Shown here: piece by piece, positions 7,435 to 29,072 of the stretch | Layout of the letters: every line of letters begins with the position of its first letter | Position numbering within the stretch: the first letter of the stretch is position 1 | Source of the DNA: Jatrophihabitans sp. | GTDB lineage: Bacteria; Actinomycetota; Actinomycetes; Mycobacteriales; Jatrophihabitantaceae | Reading direction: 5' to 3' | NCBI GenBank assembly: GCA_036399055.1 | Contig: DASWNX010000032.1 | Location: 1-42,671, forward strand | DNA: 42,671 nucleotides | Program-made: the position numbers and the translations under genes | The notes under the pieces: generated by a model | The model's database searches: none | The model's input: only the letters and a program-made list of their open reading frames with translations | What the model was told of the DNA's origin: nothing

Positions 7435-7508
7435 CGGGCTGTAGCGCAGCTTGGTAGCGCACCTGACTGGGGGTCAGGGGGTCGCAGGTTCAAATCCTGT
7501 CAGCCCGA
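7435..7508 (+). tRNA. tRNA-Pro (GGG anticodon)
   Basis: A complete cloverleaf can be drawn: acceptor CGGGCTG (7435-7441) pairs with CAGCCCG (7501-7507), discriminator A7508, a D-arm with GCGCAGCTTGGTAGCGC, anticodon stem CCTGA/TCAGG with loop CTGGGGG giving anticodon GGG, and T-arm GCAGG-TTCAAAT-CCTGT. The 3' CCA is not encoded. It sits alone between der and a lipid synthase gene, with no integrase or attachment-site duplication beside it. Confidence 0.95.
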
Positions 7509-13470: not shown

Positions 13471-13516
13471 GACGTTCGGGCCGACGGGCTGGTAGCCTTG
13501 CCAGTACCGCGACACG

Positions 13517-13622
13517 CGTACGGGAGAGTCCGTCCAGCCAGTTCTGGTCGGCGCCGAAGGGGCAATTTCCCCGCTAACCTCTCAGGCTGCAGGACCGTGC
13601 GTGCAGGTAGCTCTGAAGGGCG
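13517..13622 (+). ncRNA. Glycine riboswitch, single aptamer
   Basis: The leader of gcvP contains the conserved glycine aptamer blocks in order: CGGGAGAG (13521-13528), GGCGCCGAAGGGGCAA (about 13550-13565), CCTCTCAGGC (about 13578-13587), GGACCG (13592-13597) and CTCTGAAGG near 13611-13619. Only one aptamer copy is recognisable. Glycine binding is expected to raise expression of the downstream glycine decarboxylase. A possible -10, TAGCCT (13493-13498), lies just upstream. Confidence 0.85.
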
Positions 13623-19400: not shown

Positions 19401-19468
19401 GGTGAGCGGGCGCTAGTAGATGACCCGCGTCCTAGGGTGAGCGGGGCGCTAGTCGATGACCGCGCCCT
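19401..19468 (+). repeat. Imperfect 35-bp tandem duplication at the 3' end of the ABC exporter gene
   Basis: A block beginning GGTGAGCGGG and running through CGCTAGT(A/C)GATGACC occurs at 19401 and again at 19436, period 35. The second copy includes the stop codon and last codons of the minus-strand exporter gene, so the first copy is a duplicated gene tail including a second TAG. Confidence 0.75.
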
Positions 19469-22400
19469 GGGCCGGCACGGGCCCGGTCACCTCAGCAGAG
19501 CCGTCGAGCGCTGAGCCGCCGGAGTAGGAACGCCAGAGCCGGGCGTAGCTGCCGCCGGCGGCCAGCAGCCGCTGATGGCTGCCGTCCTCGATGATCCGGC
19601 CGTCGTGGAGCACCACGATCCGGTCCGCGCGCGCCGCGGTGGTCAGCCGGTGCGCGACGGTGACCGTCGTCCGGTGCCGGCTGAGCCGCTGGGTCGCCTC
19701 GGTCACCAGCGCCTCGCTTGCCAGGTCGAGCGCCGCGGTGGCCTCATCGAGCAACAGGATGTCGGGGTCGACGAGCTCAGCGCGGGCCAGCGCGATCAAC
19801 TGCCGCTGGCCGGCCGACAGGTTGCGGCCCCGCTCGCCCACCTGGTGCAGGTAACCGCCGCTCAAGCGCGCCACCATCTGATGCGCTCCGACCGCCTTGG
19901 CGGCCCGCTCCACCTCGGCGTCGGTGGCCTGCGGCCTGCCGTAGGCGATCGCGTCGCGGATCGTCCCCGGCGAGAGGTAGGCCTCCTGCGGGACGATGCC
20001 CAGACGCTGGCGGTAGCCGGGGAGTTCCAGCTCACGCAGATCCCGCCCGTCCACCTCGACCGCGCCCGCGGTCGGGTCGTAGAACCTGGCGATCAGCTTG
20101 ACCAGGGTGGATTTTCCTGCGCCGGTCTGACCGACCAGTGCCACCGACTGCCCGGCCGGGATGCGCAGGTCGATGCCGCTGACGGCCGGCTTGGCCGCCG
20201 AGGAGTAAGCGAAGCAGACATCGGTCAGGGTGATCTCGCCGCGCAGTGCCGGCACCGGCAGCGCGCCGGGCCGTTGCGGCGTGCCCGTCGGCGTGCGCAG
20301 CAGGTCCTTGAGCCGGGACAGCCCGACCGAGGCCTGCTGGTAGCCGTCGAAGACCTGAGACAGCTGCTGGACCGGTCCGAAGAAGGCGTCCAGGTACAGG
20401 AAGAAGGCGATCAGCGAGCCGACCGAGAGGTTGCCCTGGGCCAGCCGGTGCGCGCCGAAGGCCAGCACCGCCGCGCCGGAGAGGTCGGCGAGCAGCTGCA
20501 CGAACGGAAAGTAGGCCGCGATGTAGCGCTGAGCCCGCAACCGGGAGTCGCGGTAGCTCCGTGCGGCTCCCAGGAACGCCTGGGCGTTGTGCTTCTCGCG
20601 GCTGAACACCTGCGCCACCCGGACGCCGGCCACGTTCTCCTGGAACTGGGCGTTGACCGTGCTGACCCGCTCACGGGCCTCGAGGTAGGCAGGCGCGGAC
20701 AGCCGCCGGAACACCAGGGTGGCCGCGATCAGGACCGGCAGCACGACCACCAGCACCAACGCGAGCTCGGCGTCGAGCAGCAGCAGCGCGACCAGCACGC
20801 CGATCAGGGTCAGCAGGCTGATCAGCGCCGAGGCCAGGCCGGTCTGCAGGAAGTTCGACAACGCGTCCACGTCGGTCGTCATCCTGGTCATGATCCTTCC
20901 GCCCAGCTCGCGCTCGTAGTAGTCCAAGCTGAGCCGTTGCAGGTGCGCGAACGCCTTGACCCGCAAGGTGTAGAGCAGCCGCTCGCCGGTGCGCCCGGTC
21001 ACCCGCTGGCCGGCCGCGGCGACCGCCCAGTCGACCAACAGCACCCCGAAGGCGATCGCCGAGACGATAAACAGCACCTCTGAATGCCGCTCGGCGACGC
21101 CACGGTCGATGCCGGTGCGGATCAGGGACGGCAGGGTCAGCTGCAACACCGCGTCCAGCCCGATCAAGCCGATGCCGAGGGCGAAGGCCAGCCGCAACGG
21201 CGCCAGCAGCCTGCGCAGGGTGAACTGGGGATCGGCGGCCTGGGCCGCGGACTCGTCGATGCCCGGATCGTCAGTGGCCGGGGGCAATGCGGCGACCTTG
21301 GCCAGCAGGTCATCGGTGGCCGGGACGGCGTCGAACAGTCCGCGGCCGGCGCCCATCGGCCCGGTCTGGGCGGCCCGGCGCACCTGGCTCGTGGCCACCT
21401 CCACCGGGTCGGGCTCGACCGGCGGCTGCCACAGCGCGGTGCTCACCCCGTCGACGACCTCGGAGGCGACCGGCTCGGCGCGGGTCAGCTCACCGGCGTC
21501 GATGCCCTCAGCGTCCTCGCCGGGGCCGCCCAGCAGCAACCGGAACAGCGCCGATCGCCGCATCAGCTCATCGAAGCTGCCGATGTCAGCGACCCGGCCG
21601 TGCTCGAGCACCGCTATCCGATCAGCCAGTGCGAGCGTCGAGCGGCGGTGCGCGATCAGCAGCGTGGTGCGGCCCTGGATCAGCTGGCGCAGGGTGGCCA
21701 GGATCTCGGCCTCCACCCGGGGGTCGACCGCGCTGGTCGCGTCGTCGAGCAGCATGATCCGCGGGTCGGTGAGCAGCGCTCGGGCCAGCGCGATGCGTTG
21801 GCGCTGCCCCCCGGACAGCGTCAGACCGCGCTCGCCGACCACGGTGTCATAACCCTGCGGCAGGTCGGCGATGAAGCCGGCGGCCTCGGCGGCCTCGGCC
21901 GCGGCGACGATCCGCTCCGGGCTGGCGTCCGGGCGGCCATAGGCGATGTTGGCCGCGATCGTGTCGGAGAACAGGAAGCTGTCCTCGAAGACCATCCCGA
22001 TAGTGGCGCGCAGCTCGGCCAGCCGGACCTGGCGCACGTCGACGCCGCCGACGCTCAGCGATCCGGAGTGCGCGTCGTAGAAGCGGGGGACCAGCATCGC
22101 CAGAGTGGACTTGCCCGATCCGGCGCCGCCGACGATCGCGACGGTCTCACCCGGCTCGACGCTCAGGTCCAGGCCGCGCAGCACCGGGCTGGAACGGGTG
22201 TAGCCGAACTCGACGCCGGTGAACCGCAGGCCGAGCGGGCCGTCCGGCAGCGGCAGGGGCTCGGCCGGGTCGCGCACTTCGGGGGAGGAGTCGATCACCT
22301 CCAGGACCCGCTGCACGCCGGCCCGGGCCTGCTGGCCGATGGTCAGCAGCGCGCTCATGCCCCGCACCGGGCCGACCATCTGGCCGAGGTAGGTGGAGAA

Positions 22401-23264
22401 CGCCAGAAAGGTGCCCAGGGTGATCCGGCCGTGCAGCGCCAGCCAGCCGCCGACCAGCAGCACCCCGACCTGACCCAGCGCCGGCACGGCGGTCAGCGCC
22501 GTGGAGTACTTGGCTTGCAGCCGGACCACCCGCATCCGCTGCGCGAACAGGGTCCTGGCCCGGCTGCTGAGCTCGAGCACCTCGCGGTGCTCCTGGCCGA
22601 AGCCCTTGACCACCCGGACGCCGGTGACCGCGGCCTCTACCTGGCCGACCAGCTCACCGGCCTGCAGCTGGGCCGCCCAGTTGGCCGGAAACAGATCCCG
22701 CGAGGACAGCCGCGCGATGAGCCAGAGCGCCGGCACGATCCCCACCGCCACCAGGGTCAGCACCGGCGACAGCCACACCATGGCGACCAGCGAGATCAGA
22801 AACAGCAAGCCGTTTCCGGTCAGCACCGGCAAGAAGGACAGCAATCCCTGGACCAGGCCGACGTCGCTGATCGAGCGGCTGACCACCTGGCCGGTCTGCA
22901 GGGCGTCCTGGGCTGCGCCGTCCAGCCGCTGCATCGATTTGAAGACATCGGCGCGCAGGTCGTACTGGACGTCCAGAGAGAGCCTGCCGGCGGTGAAGCG
23001 GCGCGCGAAGGTCAGGGCGTACTGCAGCAGCGCGGCGCCGACCAGCAGGGCCACCCAGGGCGCCACCGAGGGCCGTCGCAGGCCCGGCTGAGGTGGCTGG
23101 CTGACGATGTCCACGACGTGCTTGACGATCAGGGGAACGGCTGCCAGCACCAGGGCGCCGGCCAGCGCCGCGCCGAAGGCGCCGAACAGGTCGAACCGGT
23201 GCCGCATGCAGTAACCGGCGAGCCGGCGAAGCCAGGACGGCGGACTGGGGGGTGTCGACGGCAC
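19449..23264 (-). CDS. Fused ABC exporter (TMD-NBD-TMD-NBD), Rv0194-like
   Basis: 1271 residues: both half-transporters in one chain, like mycobacterial multidrug transporter Rv0194. TMD1 is about 20-315, NBD1 about 345-580, a linker to about 680, TMD2 about 690-985, NBD2 about 1008-1250. NBD1 has Walker A GGAGSGKS (379-386), signature LSGGQ (483-487), Walker B LLDDAT with Asp508 in place of the catalytic Glu, and Glu427 where the Q-loop Gln is expected; H-loop His539. NBD2 has Walker A GQTGAGKS (1045-1052), Q1093, signature LSAGQ (1149-1153), catalytic Glu1174 and His1205. The deviations define one degenerate and one active ATP site. Start GTG 23264, six bases after minus-strand TAGGAT. Confidence 0.9.
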   Translation of the reverse strand: MPSTPPSPPSWLRRLAGYCMRHRFDLFGAFGAALAGALVLAAVPLIVKHVVDIVSQPPQPGLRRPSVAPWVALLVGAALLQYALTFARRFTAGRLSLDVQYDLRADVFKSMQRLDGAAQDALQTGQVVSRSISDVGLVQGLLSFLPVLTGNGLLFLISLVAMVWLSPVLTLVAVGIVPALWLIARLSSRDLFPANWAAQLQAGELVGQVEAAVTGVRVVKGFGQEHREVLELSSRARTLFAQRMRVVRLQAKYSTALTAVPALGQVGVLLVGGWLALHGRITLGTFLAFSTYLGQMVGPVRGMSALLTIGQQARAGVQRVLEVIDSSPEVRDPAEPLPLPDGPLGLRFTGVEFGYTRSSPVLRGLDLSVEPGETVAIVGGAGSGKSTLAMLVPRFYDAHSGSLSVGGVDVRQVRLAELRATIGMVFEDSFLFSDTIAANIAYGRPDASPERIVAAAEAAEAAGFIADLPQGYDTVVGERGLTLSGGQRQRIALARALLTDPRIMLLDDATSAVDPRVEAEILATLRQLIQGRTTLLIAHRRSTLALADRIAVLEHGRVADIGSFDELMRRSALFRLLLGGPGEDAEGIDAGELTRAEPVASEVVDGVSTALWQPPVEPDPVEVATSQVRRAAQTGPMGAGRGLFDAVPATDDLLAKVAALPPATDDPGIDESAAQAADPQFTLRRLLAPLRLAFALGIGLIGLDAVLQLTLPSLIRTGIDRGVAERHSEVLFIVSAIAFGVLLVDWAVAAAGQRVTGRTGERLLYTLRVKAFAHLQRLSLDYYERELGGRIMTRMTTDVDALSNFLQTGLASALISLLTLIGVLVALLLLDAELALVLVVVLPVLIAATLVFRRLSAPAYLEARERVSTVNAQFQENVAGVRVAQVFSREKHNAQAFLGAARSYRDSRLRAQRYIAAYFPFVQLLADLSGAAVLAFGAHRLAQGNLSVGSLIAFFLYLDAFFGPVQQLSQVFDGYQQASVGLSRLKDLLRTPTGTPQRPGALPVPALRGEITLTDVCFAYSSAAKPAVSGIDLRIPAGQSVALVGQTGAGKSTLVKLIARFYDPTAGAVEVDGRDLRELELPGYRQRLGIVPQEAYLSPGTIRDAIAYGRPQATDAEVERAAKAVGAHQMVARLSGGYLHQVGERGRNLSAGQRQLIALARAELVDPDILLLDEATAALDLASEALVTEATQRLSRHRTTVTVAHRLTTAARADRIVVLHDGRIIEDGSHQRLLAAGGSYARLWRSYSGGSALDGSAEVTGPVPAQGAVID

Positions 23265-23533: not shown

Positions 23534-24448
23534 TCAGACGGGCAGCCGTGCCGTGCCGCTGAGCAACCCGGCTGCCAGGTCGCCCTCGGTCTCGACCCGG
23601 CGAAGCACCTCGGCGCTGTCGAGCTGGCTCAGCCCCGGCGCCGCGAGCTCCTGCCAGGTGCGTGGCGCGGCCACCCAGGGCCGGGCCCGGCCGCGCAGCG
23701 AGTACGGGCAGATGGTCGTCTTGGCAGGGTTGTTCTGGCTCCAGTCCAGCAGCACCTTGCCGTCGCGCAACGCCTTGGTCATGTTGGAGACCATCAGCCG
23801 CGGGTGGCTCTTGGCCAGCGACTCGGCCAGCCGCTTGGCGTAGCCGTTGACGACATCGGCGCTCTGCGAGCCGTCCAGCGGGACGTAGAGCTGCAGCCCC
23901 TTGCTGCCGCTGGTGACCGGAACGGCGGCCAGGCCGTCCTCGGCCAGCCGGTCCTTGATCAGATGGGCGGCCTCGGCGCACTCAGCCAATCCGGCCGGCG
24001 GACCGGGGTCGAGGTCGATCACCAACCGGCTCGGGTTGCGCACCGCGCCGCGCGGGCCGACCGTCCACTGCGGCACGTGCAGCTCCAGGGCGGCGAGGTT
24101 GACCATCCAGATCAGGTCGGCGGTCTGTCGCAGCACCGGAAAGACCAGGGTCTCGCGATTGCGGGACGAACCTGGGGTGGGGAGCGTGACGGTGCGCAGC
24201 CAGTCCGGCGCGTAAGCAGGGGTGTTCTTCTCGAAGAACGGCTTGCTGTCGGTGCCGTCGGGCCACCTGATCCGGGTCACCGGGCGGTCTGCCAGCTGGG
24301 GCAGCAGCACCGGCGCGATCCGGGCGTAGTAGTCGAGCACCTCTGCCTTGGTGGTGCCTGCCTCGGGATAGAGCACCTTGTCCAGGCGCTTGAGCTTGAA
24401 CTGGTGGCCGTCGACGTGGATCAGCTGCTCGTCTGGTTCAGGACTCAC
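23534..24448 (-). CDS. NHEJ primase-polymerase (LigD PolDom, stand-alone)
   Basis: 304-residue archaeo-eukaryotic-primase-type polymerase that fills or extends ends in non-homologous end joining. The domain begins LKRLDKVLYPEAGTTKAEVLDYY (residues 19-41). The metal-binding pair is in VIDLDPGPP (Asp145, Asp147), the third aspartate in VLLDWSQNN (Asp235). The usual SGSKGLH motif reads SGSKGLQ (Gln186). Start GTG 24448 overlaps the ligase end by 11 bases, so the two are coupled. This is the polymerase part of LigD as a separate gene; no phosphoesterase domain is seen. Confidence 0.9.
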   Translation of the reverse strand: MSPEPDEQLIHVDGHQFKLKRLDKVLYPEAGTTKAEVLDYYARIAPVLLPQLADRPVTRIRWPDGTDSKPFFEKNTPAYAPDWLRTVTLPTPGSSRNRETLVFPVLRQTADLIWMVNLAALELHVPQWTVGPRGAVRNPSRLVIDLDPGPPAGLAECAEAAHLIKDRLAEDGLAAVPVTSGSKGLQLYVPLDGSQSADVVNGYAKRLAESLAKSHPRLMVSNMTKALRDGKVLLDWSQNNPAKTTICPYSLRGRARPWVAAPRTWQELAAPGLSQLDSAEVLRRVETEGDLAAGLLSGTARLPV

Positions 24449-25370
24449 GCCGCACCTCAGCAGGCGTCAGGTCGGTCCGGACGCCGCGGAACACCGGCTG
24501 GCGCAACCGGTCGCCGGGCGTCCAGCCGAGGTGACGCACCTCGACCACGAGGGCCGGCTCGCACCAGGTGGCGCCAGCCGCGTCCAGCCGGGGCACCTCG
24601 GTGCTGAACGGCGACTGGGCCAGTCGCAGCGGCCCGAGCAACCGTGTCAGGTCCTGGCCCGTGGACCGGCTGATCCCGCTGCCGACCCGGCCGGCGAAGC
24701 TCAGGCCGCCGGCTCCGTCCGGCACGCCCAGCAGCAGCGCCCCGATCTGCTCGGCAGAGCCGGCCTCGGGCCGCCAGCCGCCGACCAGGCACACCTGGTG
24801 CAGGCGGTGCGCCGTCTTGACCCAGTCCGGGCTGCGCCGCCCGGGTTGATAGGTCGAGCGGCGGCGCTTGGCCACCACGCCTTCCAGCCCCTGGTCCAGG
24901 GTGGCCGCCAGCAGCGCCGGGCCGTCGGCGTAGATCGGTGAGCGGCGCCAGGTCTGCTCCGGCAGGCTCAGCCGGTCCAGGCTGGTCCGGCGCTCGGCCA
25001 GCGGCCGCTGGGCCAGGTCCACGCCGTAGAGCCTCAGCAGGTCGAAGGCCATCACCGTCACCGGCTGCGTCTGGGCCAGCTCGCGGGCCCGGCGCTCGTC
25101 GGCGACGTGCATCCGCTCGGCCAGCGCGGCGAAGGAGGGCGTCCCCTCCCGCAGCGCGATGATCTCGCCGTCGATCAGGGCGTCCTTGACGCCGGCCAGC
25201 ACCGAGTCCAGCTCGGGAAAGCTGACGGTCACGTCCCGGCCGGTCCGGGAGAACAACCGCAGGCCGGTTGCGCTGACATCGGCCAGCACTCGCATACCAT
25301 CCCACTTGACTTCGTGCTGCCAGTCCTCGCCAATGGGTTGTGGGCCGGGTGTGGCGAGCATCGGTCGCAT
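24438..25370 (-). CDS. NHEJ ATP-dependent DNA ligase (LigD ligase domain, stand-alone)
   Basis: 310-residue ATP-dependent ligase. The adenylation motif is EVKWDGMR with Lys22 as the nucleotidyl-lysine; later motifs are ALIDGEIIALREG (motif III region), GLEGVVAKR (motif IV) and PDWVKTAHR (motif V), followed by an OB-fold C-terminal part. ATG 25370 (MRPMLATPG) is preferred because it is the conserved family start and has AGGAAA about 10 bases upstream on the minus strand. It is divergent from ku with a 50-base shared gap. Confidence 0.9.
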   Translation of the reverse strand: MRPMLATPGPQPIGEDWQHEVKWDGMRVLADVSATGLRLFSRTGRDVTVSFPELDSVLAGVKDALIDGEIIALREGTPSFAALAERMHVADERRARELAQTQPVTVMAFDLLRLYGVDLAQRPLAERRTSLDRLSLPEQTWRRSPIYADGPALLAATLDQGLEGVVAKRRRSTYQPGRRSPDWVKTAHRLHQVCLVGGWRPEAGSAEQIGALLLGVPDGAGGLSFAGRVGSGISRSTGQDLTRLLGPLRLAQSPFSTEVPRLDAAGATWCEPALVVEVRHLGWTPGDRLRQPVFRGVRTDLTPAEVRRES

Positions 25371-25420
25371 AAGATCATGTTTCCTGTGAGGACGAGTCGC
25401 CGCCACCGTGAGGAGTGGGT

Positions 25421-26404
25421 ATGAGAGCCATCTGGAAAGGTGCGGTGTCCTTCGGGTTGGTGAACGTGCCGGTGCGGTTGTTCGCCGCCACCGAGGAGAA
25501 CGATATCCGGTTCCATCAGGTGCACCGCGAGGACGGCGGCCGGATCCGTTACAAGCGCACTTGCAGCGTGTGCAACGAAGAGGTCGCCTTCGACGCGATC
25601 GCCAAGGGCTATGAGACCAGCGACGGCCAGTTGGTGATCCTCACCGATGAGGACCTGAACCAGTTGCCGGTCGCCACCAGCCACGAGATCGACGTGGTGG
25701 AGTTCGTGCCGAGCAGCCAGGTCGACCCGATCCTGTTCGCCAAGACCTACTACCTCGAGCCGGACGCCAAGGCCGCCAAGCCCTACGCCCTGCTGCGCGA
25801 GGCGCTGATCGAGACCGAGCGGATGGCCATCGTGAAGGTGGCGCTGCGGCAGAAAGAGACGCTGGCGGTGCTGCGGGTGCGCGACAAGGCGATCCTGCTG
25901 CAGACCATGCTGTGGCCCGACGAGATCCGCAAGCCGGACTTCGCGGTGCTCGACACCGAGGTGGAGTTGCGCCCGCAGGAGTTGAAGATGGCCGCCTCGC
26001 TGGTCGAGAGCATGGCCGCCGACTTCGAGCCCGAGGGCTTCACCGACAGCTACCGCGAGGCGGTGGTCGAGCTGATCGACGCCAAGCTCGAGCGCGGCGA
26101 GTCCGCCCAACTGCCCGACACCGGCAAGAAGGAGAAGGCCGGCAAGACCAGCGAGGTGGTGGACCTGCTCACCGCGCTGCAGCGCAGCGTCGACCGGGCC
26201 CGGGGCGTGCCCGCCGACGGCGCGGCCGAGTCCGGCGACACGGCCAAGGCAAGCGAGCCGGCCGAGGCGGAGCCGGCGAAGAAGGCCGCGGCCAAGAAGT
26301 CCGCCCCGGCGAAGAAGGCGCCGCCTGCCAAGAAGGCGCCGGCGAAGAAGGCGGCGTCGAGCAAGGCCGCTCCAGCGAGGAAGGCCGCGTCCAAGAGCGC
26401 CTGA
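25421..26404 (+). CDS. ku: Ku, NHEJ end-binding protein
   Basis: Homodimeric ring that binds double-strand breaks and recruits the ligase and polymerase. The 327-residue protein starts MRAIWKGAVSFGLVNVPVRL, the canonical N-terminus, and contains the CNEEV region and the ring core to about residue 255. The C-terminus (about 276-327) is a lysine/alanine-rich tail with repeated KKA and KKAP blocks. Such tails in mycobacterial Ku bind DNA and influence NHEJ. ATG 25421 has AGGAG five bases upstream. Together with the divergent ligase and polymerase it makes a compact NHEJ locus. Confidence 0.94.
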   Translation: MRAIWKGAVSFGLVNVPVRLFAATEENDIRFHQVHREDGGRIRYKRTCSVCNEEVAFDAIAKGYETSDGQLVILTDEDLNQLPVATSHEIDVVEFVPSSQVDPILFAKTYYLEPDAKAAKPYALLREALIETERMAIVKVALRQKETLAVLRVRDKAILLQTMLWPDEIRKPDFAVLDTEVELRPQELKMAASLVESMAADFEPEGFTDSYREAVVELIDAKLERGESAQLPDTGKKEKAGKTSEVVDLLTALQRSVDRARGVPADGAAESGDTAKASEPAEAEPAKKAAAKKSAPAKKAPPAKKAPAKKAASSKAAPARKAASKSA

Positions 26405-26431
26405 GCGGCGCCGCGGTGGCGCGATCCTTGC

Positions 26432-26437
26432 TACCGT
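26432..26437 (+). promoter_or_regulatory. -10 element for a leaderless trpS leader transcript
   Basis: TACCGT ends six bases before the leader-peptide ATG at 26444. The intervening AAGGGC resembles a ribosome-binding site but lies too close to the ATG to act as one. No clear -35. Confidence 0.4.
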
Positions 26438-26443
26438 AAGGGC

Positions 26444-26494
26444 ATGTCCAGCTGCCTGGCGCCTGTCCAACGCAGCTGGCGGCTGTCCGGATAA
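26444..26494 (+). CDS. trpS leader peptide with one Trp codon
   Basis: A 16-residue open frame, MSSCLAPVQRSWRLSG, ends at TAA 26492-26494. The single Trp codon TGG is at 26477-26479, directly before the first arm of the attenuator. Placement of the Trp codon and the overlap of the stop with the hairpin loop fit ribosome-mediated attenuation, which has been described, as I recall, for the auxiliary TrpRS of Streptomyces coelicolor. Too short for family matching, so the call rests on arrangement. Confidence 0.7.
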   Translation: MSSCLAPVQRSWRLSG

Positions 26495-26559
26495 CGGACG
26501 GCGCCACACCCACCCTGATCAATCCAGCGAAGGGGCCGTCCTGCCGGACGGCCCCTTTT
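26478..26559 (+). promoter_or_regulatory. Transcription attenuator of trpS
   Basis: Four arms can be drawn. Arms 1-2: GGCG and GTCCG (26478-26489) pair with CGGAC and CGCC (26495-26505) across loop GATAA. Arms 2-3 (alternative): GGACGGC (26496-26502) pairs with GCCGTCC (26535-26541), extendable by GG/CC with one bulge. Arms 3-4: AAGGGGCCGTCC (26530-26541), loop TGCC, GGACGGCCCCTT with TTTT end (to 26559), an intrinsic terminator. A ribosome stalled at the Trp codon would cover arm 1, free arm 2 and block the terminator. The terminator alone is certain; switching is inference. Confidence 0.8.
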
Positions 26560-26603
26560 GCTGTGCTCCCGGCTGGATCGCCCCTCCTGTCAAGGAGGAA
26601 ACC

Positions 26604-27629
26604 ATGACAACGACGACGACCGTGCCGGCTGCCCGCACCGCGGCGGGGCCCGGGCTGCCGGCGCCGGGCCGGGTGCTGACCGGTGACCGCCCGACCGGCG
26701 GCCTGCACCTCGGGCACTACTTCGGCACGCTGGCCAACCGGGTCCGGCTGCAGCAGCAGGGATGCGAGCTGTTCGTGGTGGTGGCCGACTACCAGGTCAT
26801 CACCGACCGGGACCGGCCGGAAAACCTCGCGCAGCTTCGCACGTCAATGGTGCTGGACTACCTGGCCTGCGGCATCGACGCCGACAACAGCGTGATCTTC
26901 GCTCACAGCGCGGCGCCGGCCCTGAACCAGCTGCTGCTGCCGTTCCTGTCACTGGTGAGCACCGGCGAACTGGACCGCAACCCGACTGTGAAGGAGGAGA
27001 TCCGGATGGCGGGCCGATCTAAAGTCAACGGGTTGATGATGACCTATCCGGTGCACCAGGCCGCGGACATCCTTTTCTGCAAGGCGGAACTGGTGCCGGT
27101 GGGCAAGGACCAGCTGCCGCACCTGGAGCTGACCCGGTCCATCGCGCGCCGGTTCAACGACCGCTACGGCCCGGTTTTCCCTCTGCCCGAAGGGTTGCTC
27201 GGCGAGGTCGGCACGCTGCTGGGACTGGACGGCCGCAAGATGTCGAAGAGCCTGGGCAACGGCATCGCGTTGTCCGATGGCCCGGACCAGGTGGCGGCCA
27301 AGGTGCGAGCCGCCCGGACGGACTCCGAGCGGCGGATTAGCTATCACCCGCAGAGCCGGCCCGAGGTCGCCAACCTGCTCACCCTGGCCGGCCTCTGCCT
27401 GGGGGTGGCGCCGGCGGTGGTCGCCGAGCAGGTCGGCGCCGGGGGAGCCGCCGAGCTGAAGCGGGTGGTGACCGACTCGGTCAACAAGCTGCTGGCCCCG
27501 ATCAGGGCTCGGCGCGCCTCGTTCGGACCTGGGGACGCCGCCGAGATCCTGCGCCGTGGCGCTAGCCGGGCCCGCGAGATCGCCGACGCCACCCTGGCCG
27601 AGGTCAACGCCGTGATGGGTATGGGATAG
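26604..27629 (+). CDS. trpS: Tryptophanyl-tRNA synthetase, auxiliary type
   Basis: Charges tRNA-Trp. 341 residues with the class I signatures HLGH (35-38, in GDRPTGGLHLGHYFG) and KMSKS (212-216). The GDRPTG version of the first motif is that of the auxiliary, often indolmycin-resistant TrpRS group of actinomycetes, not the main bacterial TrpRS, which usually has GxxPSG. ATG 26604 has a strong AAGGAGGAAACC ribosome-binding site. It is preceded by a leader peptide and terminator/antiterminator, so expression should rise when charged tRNA-Trp is low. Another TrpRS is expected elsewhere in the genome (inference). Confidence 0.9.
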   Translation: MTTTTTVPAARTAAGPGLPAPGRVLTGDRPTGGLHLGHYFGTLANRVRLQQQGCELFVVVADYQVITDRDRPENLAQLRTSMVLDYLACGIDADNSVIFAHSAAPALNQLLLPFLSLVSTGELDRNPTVKEEIRMAGRSKVNGLMMTYPVHQAADILFCKAELVPVGKDQLPHLELTRSIARRFNDRYGPVFPLPEGLLGEVGTLLGLDGRKMSKSLGNGIALSDGPDQVAAKVRAARTDSERRISYHPQSRPEVANLLTLAGLCLGVAPAVVAEQVGAGGAAELKRVVTDSVNKLLAPIRARRASFGPGDAAEILRRGASRAREIADATLAEVNAVMGMG

Positions 27630-27657
27630 CACCTGCCTCGACGTAGGTAGCATGGTG

Positions 27658-27676
27658 TGCGCATACCTGCGCATAC
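27658..27676 (+). promoter_or_regulatory. Tandem TGCGCATAC boxes, possible autoregulatory operator
   Basis: TGCGCATAC occurs at 27658-27666 and 27668-27676, a period of 10 bases, about one helical turn. TACGAT (27673-27678) overlaps the second box and could be the -10 for the gene starting at 27693. Spacing in register with the helix is what ribbon-helix-helix repressors bind. Confidence 0.45.
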
Positions 27677-27692
27677 GATGAAGGTGGTTGTC

Positions 27693-29072
27693 ATGGGTCG
27701 AGCGAACGTCTACCTGCCCGATGATCTGGAACGCCGGGTGAAGGCGGCCCAGATCCCGATCTCAGAGGTGTGCCAGCGCGCGCTGCTGGCCGCCGTCGAG
27801 GCGGCCGAGGGGGGTAGCCACCCGTTCGGCCCGCAGATCAGCCAGCAATTCCAGCGAGGCTGGCAGGCCGGCCTGAGCTGGACGCGCCAGGCCTCGCCCG
27901 AGGAGCTGCTGACGCTGCTGCGTGACCAGCGGCTGGCAGAGATCCCGGCCGAGCTGCTGCCGGCCGATCAGTTCTCCCTCACCCAGGAGCAGGCGCTGGC
28001 CTGGGAGGCCGGTTTCATGGAGGGCGCTCGCGGCGCGGTCCGGATTCCGCGTCCGGCAGACACCACGGGAGCCACGGGGGCTGCAGGCGCCGCCGAGCCC
28101 GCGGCTGGGCAGCCGGGTCAGGCCTCAGGTCAGGCCGCGGCGTCAGGGGATGAGCCGGTTGAGGCCGCCGCCGAGGAGCCGGTGACCGTCTCAGCCACGC
28201 CGCGCCCCGAGGTGGACGAGCTTGGCGATGACTCAGGCTGCCAGATCGGGGTGACCCTCGACGGCAACCGGGTGTCCTTCGATCCGCACGCGGCCGTGCG
28301 AGCCGGCAAGAGCCCGGTGTTCGCCGTGCTGGGCCAGGCCGACGAGCGTGCCCGGCTGGTGCTCAGCGTGGCGCAGGACGCCGCGGCCCGGGGCACCGGC
28401 GTGGTGCTGGTCGACCTGTCCGGACAGCTCACCTCGCGGGCGGCCGGCCTGGGCAAGAACGTCCGGGTCCTGCGCCGGTCGCAGACCGCCGCGCCCCGGC
28501 TGGAGGACCTGGTGCAGGGGGCTGTCGGCCTGGGCGGGCTGTGGGACACCGTCGCCGGCCTGTCCCGCGGCGGCGGGCTGGCCGAGATGTTCACCGGCTC
28601 CTCGGATGAGCGGATCGAGCCCGGCTACGTCACGGTCATCGCGCTGTCCGGCGACAGCCTGGCCTCCGCGCTGCCCGCCATGCAGATCCTGGGCCAGCTC
28701 GCCTCCAAAGCCGACTTCCCCCGGCTGCTGCACGTGGACGTGCCGAGCGGCTTCAGCGTGCCGGCGCCGTTCGCGTCGCGGCTGGGCCGGATCGTGCGGA
28801 CCGCGCGGCAGCAGAACGCCGCCGTCGGGCTGTCGGCCGAGAACGCCGACACCATCGGCCAGCTCGCCAGTGGCGGCGCGTTGCTGTCCACCGCGATCGC
28901 CTTCGCCACCAGCAGCCCGGCAGAGGCCGACCGGTTGCGCAACCTGCTCGGGGTGGACGCCCCCATCCTGGTGAACCCGCCGGGCGCCTCGGTGCGTCAC
29001 AGCGACGAGACCTGGGCCGTGATGCGCGACCTGCACGGCCGGCTCGGCCAGGTCCGGATGGAAGGCTGGTGA
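27693..29072 (+). CDS. Ribbon-helix-helix protein with C-terminal P-loop-like domain, unknown function
   Basis: 459 residues. The N-terminus MGRANVYLPDDLERRVKAAQ, then IPISEVCQRALLAAVEAAE, is a CopG-type ribbon-helix-helix DNA-binding domain. A helical region (about 50-125), a low-complexity Ala/Gly/Glu linker (about 130-180) and a large C-terminal domain (about 200-455) follow. The last has the strand VFAVLGQADERARLVLSVA, the strand GVVLVDLSGQL and a late DVPSGFSVP strand, as in RecA/HerA-type ATPases, but no GK(S/T) is present after the first strand. No membrane segment. ATG 27693 is chosen over upstream starts because MGRANVYLP is the domain start. Function unknown; DNA binding and autoregulation are likely. 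Confidence 0.72.
   Translation: MGRANVYLPDDLERRVKAAQIPISEVCQRALLAAVEAAEGGSHPFGPQISQQFQRGWQAGLSWTRQASPEELLTLLRDQRLAEIPAELLPADQFSLTQEQALAWEAGFMEGARGAVRIPRPADTTGATGAAGAAEPAAGQPGQASGQAAASGDEPVEAAAEEPVTVSATPRPEVDELGDDSGCQIGVTLDGNRVSFDPHAAVRAGKSPVFAVLGQADERARLVLSVAQDAAARGTGVVLVDLSGQLTSRAAGLGKNVRVLRRSQTAAPRLEDLVQGAVGLGGLWDTVAGLSRGGGLAEMFTGSSDERIEPGYVTVIALSGDSLASALPAMQILGQLASKADFPRLLHVDVPSGFSVPAPFASRLGRIVRTARQQNAAVGLSAENADTIGQLASGGALLSTAIAFATSSPAEADRLRNLLGVDAPILVNPPGASVRHSDETWAVMRDLHGRLGQVRMEGW

Follow-up and report, generated by a model that had tools for sequence, protein, structure and literature searches.

A predicted trp-type attenuator with a probably leaderless leader peptide before an auxiliary tryptophanyl-tRNA synthetase gene of Jatrophihabitans sp.

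Results

Our analysis points to a trp-type ribosome-mediated transcription attenuator, with a leader peptide read from leaderless RNA, that would control an auxiliary and probably indolmycin-insensitive tryptophanyl-tRNA synthetase (TrpRS) in Jatrophihabitans sp., a reading to which we give a probability of roughly 0.88. The element lies in the window, by which we mean the whole stretch of 42,671 nucleotides that was analysed (assembly GCA_036399055.1, contig DASWNX010000032.1), and its parts follow one another on the plus strand:

26432-26437, plus strand: -10-like hexamer TACCGT, read from the sequence
26444-26494, plus strand: leader peptide frame MSSCLAPVQRSWRLSG of 16 codons, from ATG 26444 to the stop TAA 26492-26494; predicted transcript start at its first base
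26477-26479, plus strand: candidate regulatory Trp codon TGG, codon 12 of 16 and the only Trp codon of the window's leader
26477-26489, plus strand: arm 1, pairs with arm 2
26495-26506, plus strand: arm 2, of which GGACGGC (26496-26502) also pairs with arm 3
26532-26541, plus strand: arm 3, the 5' half of the terminator, of which GCCGTCC (26535-26541) pairs with arm 2
26546-26555, plus strand: arm 4, the 3' half of the terminator, pairs with arm 3
26556-26559, plus strand: T-run of four, TTTT, read from the sequence
26592-26599, plus strand: Shine-Dalgarno sequence AAGGAGGA of trpS, 7-base core match, duplex -11.2 kcal/mol
26604-27629, plus strand: trpS, auxiliary TrpRS (TrpRS II-like), 341 aa, TIGR00233 at 2.8e-75

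The trpS gene starts at ATG 26604, and its product is closest among solved chains to 1yi8 and to 2a4m, which bears the name Tryptophanyl-tRNA synthetase II. The same genome encodes a second TrpRS (G000:C30) with 38% identity to the auxiliary enzyme. Together with the TIGR00233 match, these relatives and the second gene bear out the auxiliary type that an earlier sequence-only reading had proposed for the enzyme; the trp-type attenuator that it placed before the gene is supported as well. No such leader was found in the 420 bases before the housekeeping TrpRS match. The auxiliary enzyme carries Gln64, invariant in 16 aligned sequences (the window's included), where the housekeeping copy has His. 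By motif we take this site to be that of His43 in the Bacillus stearothermophilus enzyme, and from the Gln/His difference together with this presumed correspondence the window's TrpRS is likely to be indolmycin-insensitive. The accessible part of a report on the B. stearothermophilus enzyme ties His43 to indolmycin sensitivity and names Asn, not Gln, as the resistant form (PMC4899734).

Stretches resembling trpS (60-80% DNA identity) occur in 17 plasmid-collection records, including those of Streptomyces, Microbacterium and Rhodococcus. Just after trpS lies a 471-aa frame (27657-29069) with no Pfam match at E <= 0.001. On the other side, at 23537-26404, Ku is divergent from two genes with LigD primase-polymerase and ATP-dependent DNA ligase domains, in what looks like a non-homologous end-joining cluster. 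The window further holds a tRNA gene (7435-7508, RF00005), a glycine riboswitch aptamer (13511-13607, RF00504, 58.1 bits) and a 1271-aa protein (19452-23264) that combines two ABC transmembrane stretches with two ABC ATPase stretches in a single chain.

The 16-codon frame, its one Trp codon and a TACCGT ending six bases before the ATG had been described in the sequence-only reading, and all three can be read directly in the sequence. The six bases between TACCGT and ATG 26444 are AAGGGC, and a TGC directly 5' of the hexamer could serve as an extended -10. Across both strands of the window, 5 of 2171 ATG or GTG triplets have TANNNT six bases upstream. The duplex energy check found no Shine-Dalgarno sequence at the leader start (+0.6 kcal/mol, vs -11.2 kcal/mol at the trpS start). 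A promoter consensus scan of 26300-27700 listed nothing, so TACCGT comes without a -35 consensus; because of this empty scan, our claims on the promoter and the terminator rest on comparison. The mean distance from the -10 to the transcript start in S. lividans is given as 6.3 nt in the part of the study available (PMC8079986).

Arms 1 and 2 form a helix of 12 pairs with one bulged G (-20.9 kcal/mol), starting at the Trp codon, and GGACGGC in arm 2 is complementary to GCCGTCC in arm 3 over seven bases. Sequence and folding thus agree with the hairpin and the seven-base alternative pairing proposed earlier. The terminator stem (26532-26541/26546-26555) consists of 10 perfect, G+C-rich pairs at -22.7 kcal/mol and is followed by TTTT. 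The earlier description of a strong terminator with a T-run therefore holds for the stem, but the run is of four T only, and the terminator scan of 26300-27700, which asked for at least 5 T in 8, listed nothing. The leader RNA as a whole folds at -63.0 kcal/mol, compared with -43.96 (sd 3.76) for shuffled sequences (z -5.06; 0 of 200 as low). When the whole window was searched against Rfam release 15 at gathering score no match was obtained at the attenuator, and a search of 26400-26620 at E <= 1 gave no relevant family, the best being symR at 21.3 bits against the 61 needed for gathering.

The pairings 1-2, 2-3 and 3-4 are mutually exclusive. The ribosome edge lies about 12 bases past the first base of the A-site codon in E. 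coli, and we used this value in folding; with such edges, a stall at TGG would free arm 2. The stretch of RNA between 26490 and the last base of arm 3 adopts the 2-3 helix (-17.7 kcal/mol). With TAA in the A site the RNA is free from 26505, so that arm 2 is no longer available and the RNA folds as 3-4. A ribosome on the start codon leaves the RNA free from 26460, and both 1-2 and 3-4 form; the unbound leader RNA has 3-4, the inner part of 1-2 and a stem at the 5' end. The folding comparison proposed earlier thus comes out in two parts: the 2-3 helix does form up to the end of arm 3, but once arm 4 has been made 3-4 is the predicted minimum in every case folded, whatever the ribosome covers. 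The switch must therefore be kinetic, with timing deciding as in known attenuators. The 5' stem of the unbound RNA (26448-26455/26472-26479, CCAGCTGC with GCAGCTGG) sequesters the Trp codon, in competition with the outer pairs of 1-2.

The strongest case against chance comes from comparison with relatives, for which we collected up to 420 bases upstream of 111 TrpRS matches. Thirty-one were genome-search loci, drawn from lists capped at the best matches (30 in one of them), and include the housekeeping TrpRS copy of the window's own genome (L002); the other 80 came from named genomes and were taken from 584 relatives. The search rule asked for a short Trp-containing frame preceded at 4-8 bases by TANNNT. 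It was satisfied by 59 of the 111 regions, compared with 3 of 111 reverse complements and with 92 of 2220 shuffled regions (about 4%). Three hits (L068, L075, L094) were dropped as chance-like, each having one Trp, a longer frame and a record titled Bacillota, Tamlana or Spirochaetaceae. They show gaps of 6, 5 and 5 and begin with TTG, ATG and TTG, respectively, which means that dropping them accounts in part for the clean spacing and the absence of TTG reported below. Four leaders (L019, L020, L025, L027) were added by eye in a second look that covered 27 of the 52 rule negatives, three of them with CACNAT seven bases before the start and L027 with TAGCGT nine bases before it. After these changes, 60 Trp-codon leaders were counted before 110 genes of the auxiliary TrpRS type, the window's included.

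Leaders were found in 26 of the 30 genome-search loci of auxiliary type, with none detected at the remaining L014, L016, L018 and L031, and in 34 of the 80 named loci, many of which are non-actinobacterial. Named genera with a leader include Streptomyces, Kitasatospora, Saccharopolyspora, Actinomadura and Nonomuraea, and also Microbispora, Cellulomonas, Microbacterium, Cryobacterium and Propioniciclava. The 60 leaders run to 9-18 codons, start with ATG (52) or GTG (8) and have their first Trp codon at codon 6-12. One, two or three Trp codons occur in 5, 45 and 10 of them, the presence of Trp being a search condition; the window's leader has one, whereas 55 of the 60 have two or three. In the window's genus (L001, L003, L004) the leader reads Trp-Arg (TGGCGG), compared with two Trp in 45 and three in 10 of the 60 leaders.

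Of the 60 leaders, 56 have TANNNT ahead of the start codon at a gap of 6 bases (42 leaders) or 7 bases (14). Trp and a -10 are selected for by the search rule, which leaves spacing and structure as independent results. A Shine-Dalgarno core of at least 5 bases was found at none of the 60 leader starts, a weak contrast by itself with the 4% seen in shuffles. The leader transcript might instead carry a 5' leader of its own, by readthrough from the Ku gene or from a promoter further upstream, with the same attenuator and an incidental -10. Ku does lie on the same strand, ending at 26404, 27 bases before the -10, and no -35 consensus was found. We nevertheless hold such a transcript to be unlikely, given that TANNNT keeps its 6-7 base distance in 56 of 60 leaders with differing upstream sequences, that the window's leader start lacks a Shine-Dalgarno sequence, and that the S. 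lividans counterpart is listed as leaderless in the portion of the paper at hand (PMC8079986). On the same grounds the window's leader peptide is probably read from a leaderless RNA, as the sequence-only reading had supposed.

Covariation was assessed in an alignment (A2) of 29 of the 60 leaders, chosen by eye for a similar arrangement of the arms, and the counts apply to these 29 alone; A2 misaligns arm 1, and the counts cover the 2-3 and 3-4 helices. Over the seven pairs of the 2-3 helix, 92.6% of 203 cells were paired, a level that none of 500 shuffles attained (mean 89.4), and 15 cells were doubly changed against a shuffled mean of 6.1 (again 0 of 500 as high). Controls slid by 1-3 columns reached 28-56% pairing. 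At one pair of the helix, 13 loci carry A-U and 12 carry G-C. Two of the five measures were not outstanding: the 2 pairs with a double change were equalled or exceeded in 30 of 500 shuffles, and the 3 further pair types in all 500. Part of the 2-3 pairs fail in L071, L101 and L106. In the 3-4 helix 92.1% of 290 cells were paired and doubly changed cells numbered 15, compared with 5.8 in shuffles (none of 500 as high), while pairs with a double change and further pair types were reached by 49 and 60 of 500 shuffles. The shuffles keep relatedness, and the covariation figures are therefore support rather than proof. The Trp codon and the 2-3 pairing, whose conservation in relatives had been named as a check, are thus kept in most loci (leader in 26 of 30) but not in all.

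These data also bear on two other explanations of the conserved frame. A plain terminator between Ku and trpS with a short frame by chance, and no regulation, could appeal to the commonness of short frames and to the shuffled upstream regions, of which about 4% (92 of 2220) show the pattern. Yet the pattern turned up in just 3 of 111 reverse complements, as opposed to 59 of 111 real regions, and with the 2-3 covariation added we find this explanation scarcely credible. Alternatively the frame could be kept for a peptide acting in trans rather than for stalling, and the Sinorhizobium meliloti trp leader peptide has been reported to act beyond attenuation (PMC7298713, in the part available). The RNA pairing is kept through double changes, and the peptides, compared by eye, have little in common apart from the Trp codons and the residues that arm 1 specifies, which makes a role in trans very improbable. 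Ribosome stalling within an attenuator remains the reading we prefer.

Several relatives depart from the window's layout. A strong hairpin (script-picked) with no T in the next ten bases follows the leader in L013, L015, L019 and L077, so the way of termination may differ there. In L007 (1366-1410) the stop codon comes after an arm-2-like GGACGGC, the arm is translated and the stop-in-loop layout is lost. The automatic hairpin picker often took hairpins longer than the core and its medians carry no weight; at short stop-to-hairpin distance it yielded no usable 2-3 duplex.

Presence of the leader goes with the number of TrpRS genes. Among 50 named genomes searched for TrpRS, whose completeness is unstated, 34 have two or more and 16 have one (G235 is counted among the latter because its second match is weak), and the leader is present in 31 of the 34 against 2 of the 16. 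With the genome-search loci added and L108 left out, the figures are 56 of 63 genomes with two or more TrpRS against 2 of 16 with a sole TrpRS (Fisher p 9e-9). On the tree the sole-TrpRS state needs only two changes, and an independent-pairs test of leader against second TrpRS found two pairs and no support. The association may therefore be a single evolutionary event and no law.

Discussion

What we infer for Jatrophihabitans sp., from the start site through stalling and termination to induction and drug insensitivity, would fit together as follows. Transcription would begin at the leader ATG or within a base of it, so that the ribosome would load on the 5' end without a Shine-Dalgarno sequence. 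With charged tRNA-Trp plentiful, the ribosome would reach TAA 26492 and cover arm 2, and the 3-4 terminator would stop transcription. With charged tRNA-Trp scarce, through Trp starvation or inhibition of the housekeeping TrpRS, it would stall at TGG 26477 and mask arm 1; arm 2 would then pair with arm 3 and RNA polymerase would read on into trpS. Without translation, 1-2 and 3-4 would be expected to form and transcription to stop. A spare, probably drug-insensitive TrpRS would in this way switch on only when tRNA-Trp charging fails, and the sensor would be a ribosome starting at the very first base of the RNA.

It had been suggested that a ribosome initiating at the first base would be positioned differently. 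We do not share this view: the stall is set by TGG however the ribosome started, so a leaderless start would change loading only. Leaderless loading might still be a selected part of the attenuator, beyond a habit of the lineage. A start codon at the first base would then tie ribosome entry to the 5' end as it leaves RNA polymerase, and the switch would also answer to conditions that alter leaderless initiation, such as the balance of initiation factors. Fifty-six of 60 leaders, from many actinobacterial genera and with varied promoter sequence, keep the spacing of 6-7 bases, which is compatible with such selection. Leaderless leaders are, however, common in S. lividans anyway, going by the leaders listed in the section available (PMC8079986), which favours the plainer view, and we consider selection rather doubtful. 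The comparative set makes it testable whether attenuation needs, or gains from, leaderless initiation.

For the window itself we have, above all, a sound account of a regulatory element that lacks an Rfam family. The breadth of the 6-7 base spacing across relatives, which we read as predicted leaderless starts, is what our analysis adds; we met no description of it over the whole family in paper titles and abstract openings, a source that leaves subscription papers largely uncovered. It also adds the apparent tie of the leader to a second TrpRS, which is clade-bound and may be one event.

Among known systems, the S. coelicolor TrpRS1 is like the window's enzyme a second TrpRS. Attenuation of its gene is reportedly the subject of a 2010 paper. 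TrpRS1 is induced and indolmycin-resistant according to the parts available of two reports (Kitabatake et al. 2002; Vecchione and Sello 2009), whereas for the window's gene these properties are predicted from sequence. The trpS2 gene of Streptomyces avermitilis likewise has a predicted classical attenuator before a TrpRS gene; we liken it by description, not sequence, and the word leaderless is absent from the main text as available (PMC1262725).

The closest counterpart is trpL2-trpS of S. lividans TK24. In the part of that study at hand, trpL2 (MMTRTCTQLWRAA) stands before trpS with a leaderless transcription start (PMC8079986, Table 4), so what had seemed an added twist of the Jatrophihabitans leader was already on record. 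As in the window, a short frame with a single Trp codon, there too followed by Arg, precedes a TrpRS gene with hairpins after the frame; unlike the window, the peptide is another one and there is no U-rich stretch where the window has TTTT (PMC8079986). Six of the seven other leaders listed there, before trpE, leuA, leuS, ilvB, metN and thrS, are also leaderless, while for the seventh, alaL, no such statement was met in the section available; leuL1, leuL2, trpL1, ilvL, metL and thrL thus resemble the predicted leader of the window in being leaderless leader peptides (PMC8079986). The ilvB leader of Corynebacterium diphtheriae and the mycobacterial cysteine-rich uORFs similarly place a regulatory frame, or a candidate for one, at the very 5' end. 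These other leaderless actinobacterial leaders differ from the window in amino acid or gene, and termination is unclear in several. Relatives of the attenuator occur in many actinobacteria, and a Streptomyces provides a published precedent both for the switch and for its leaderless start.
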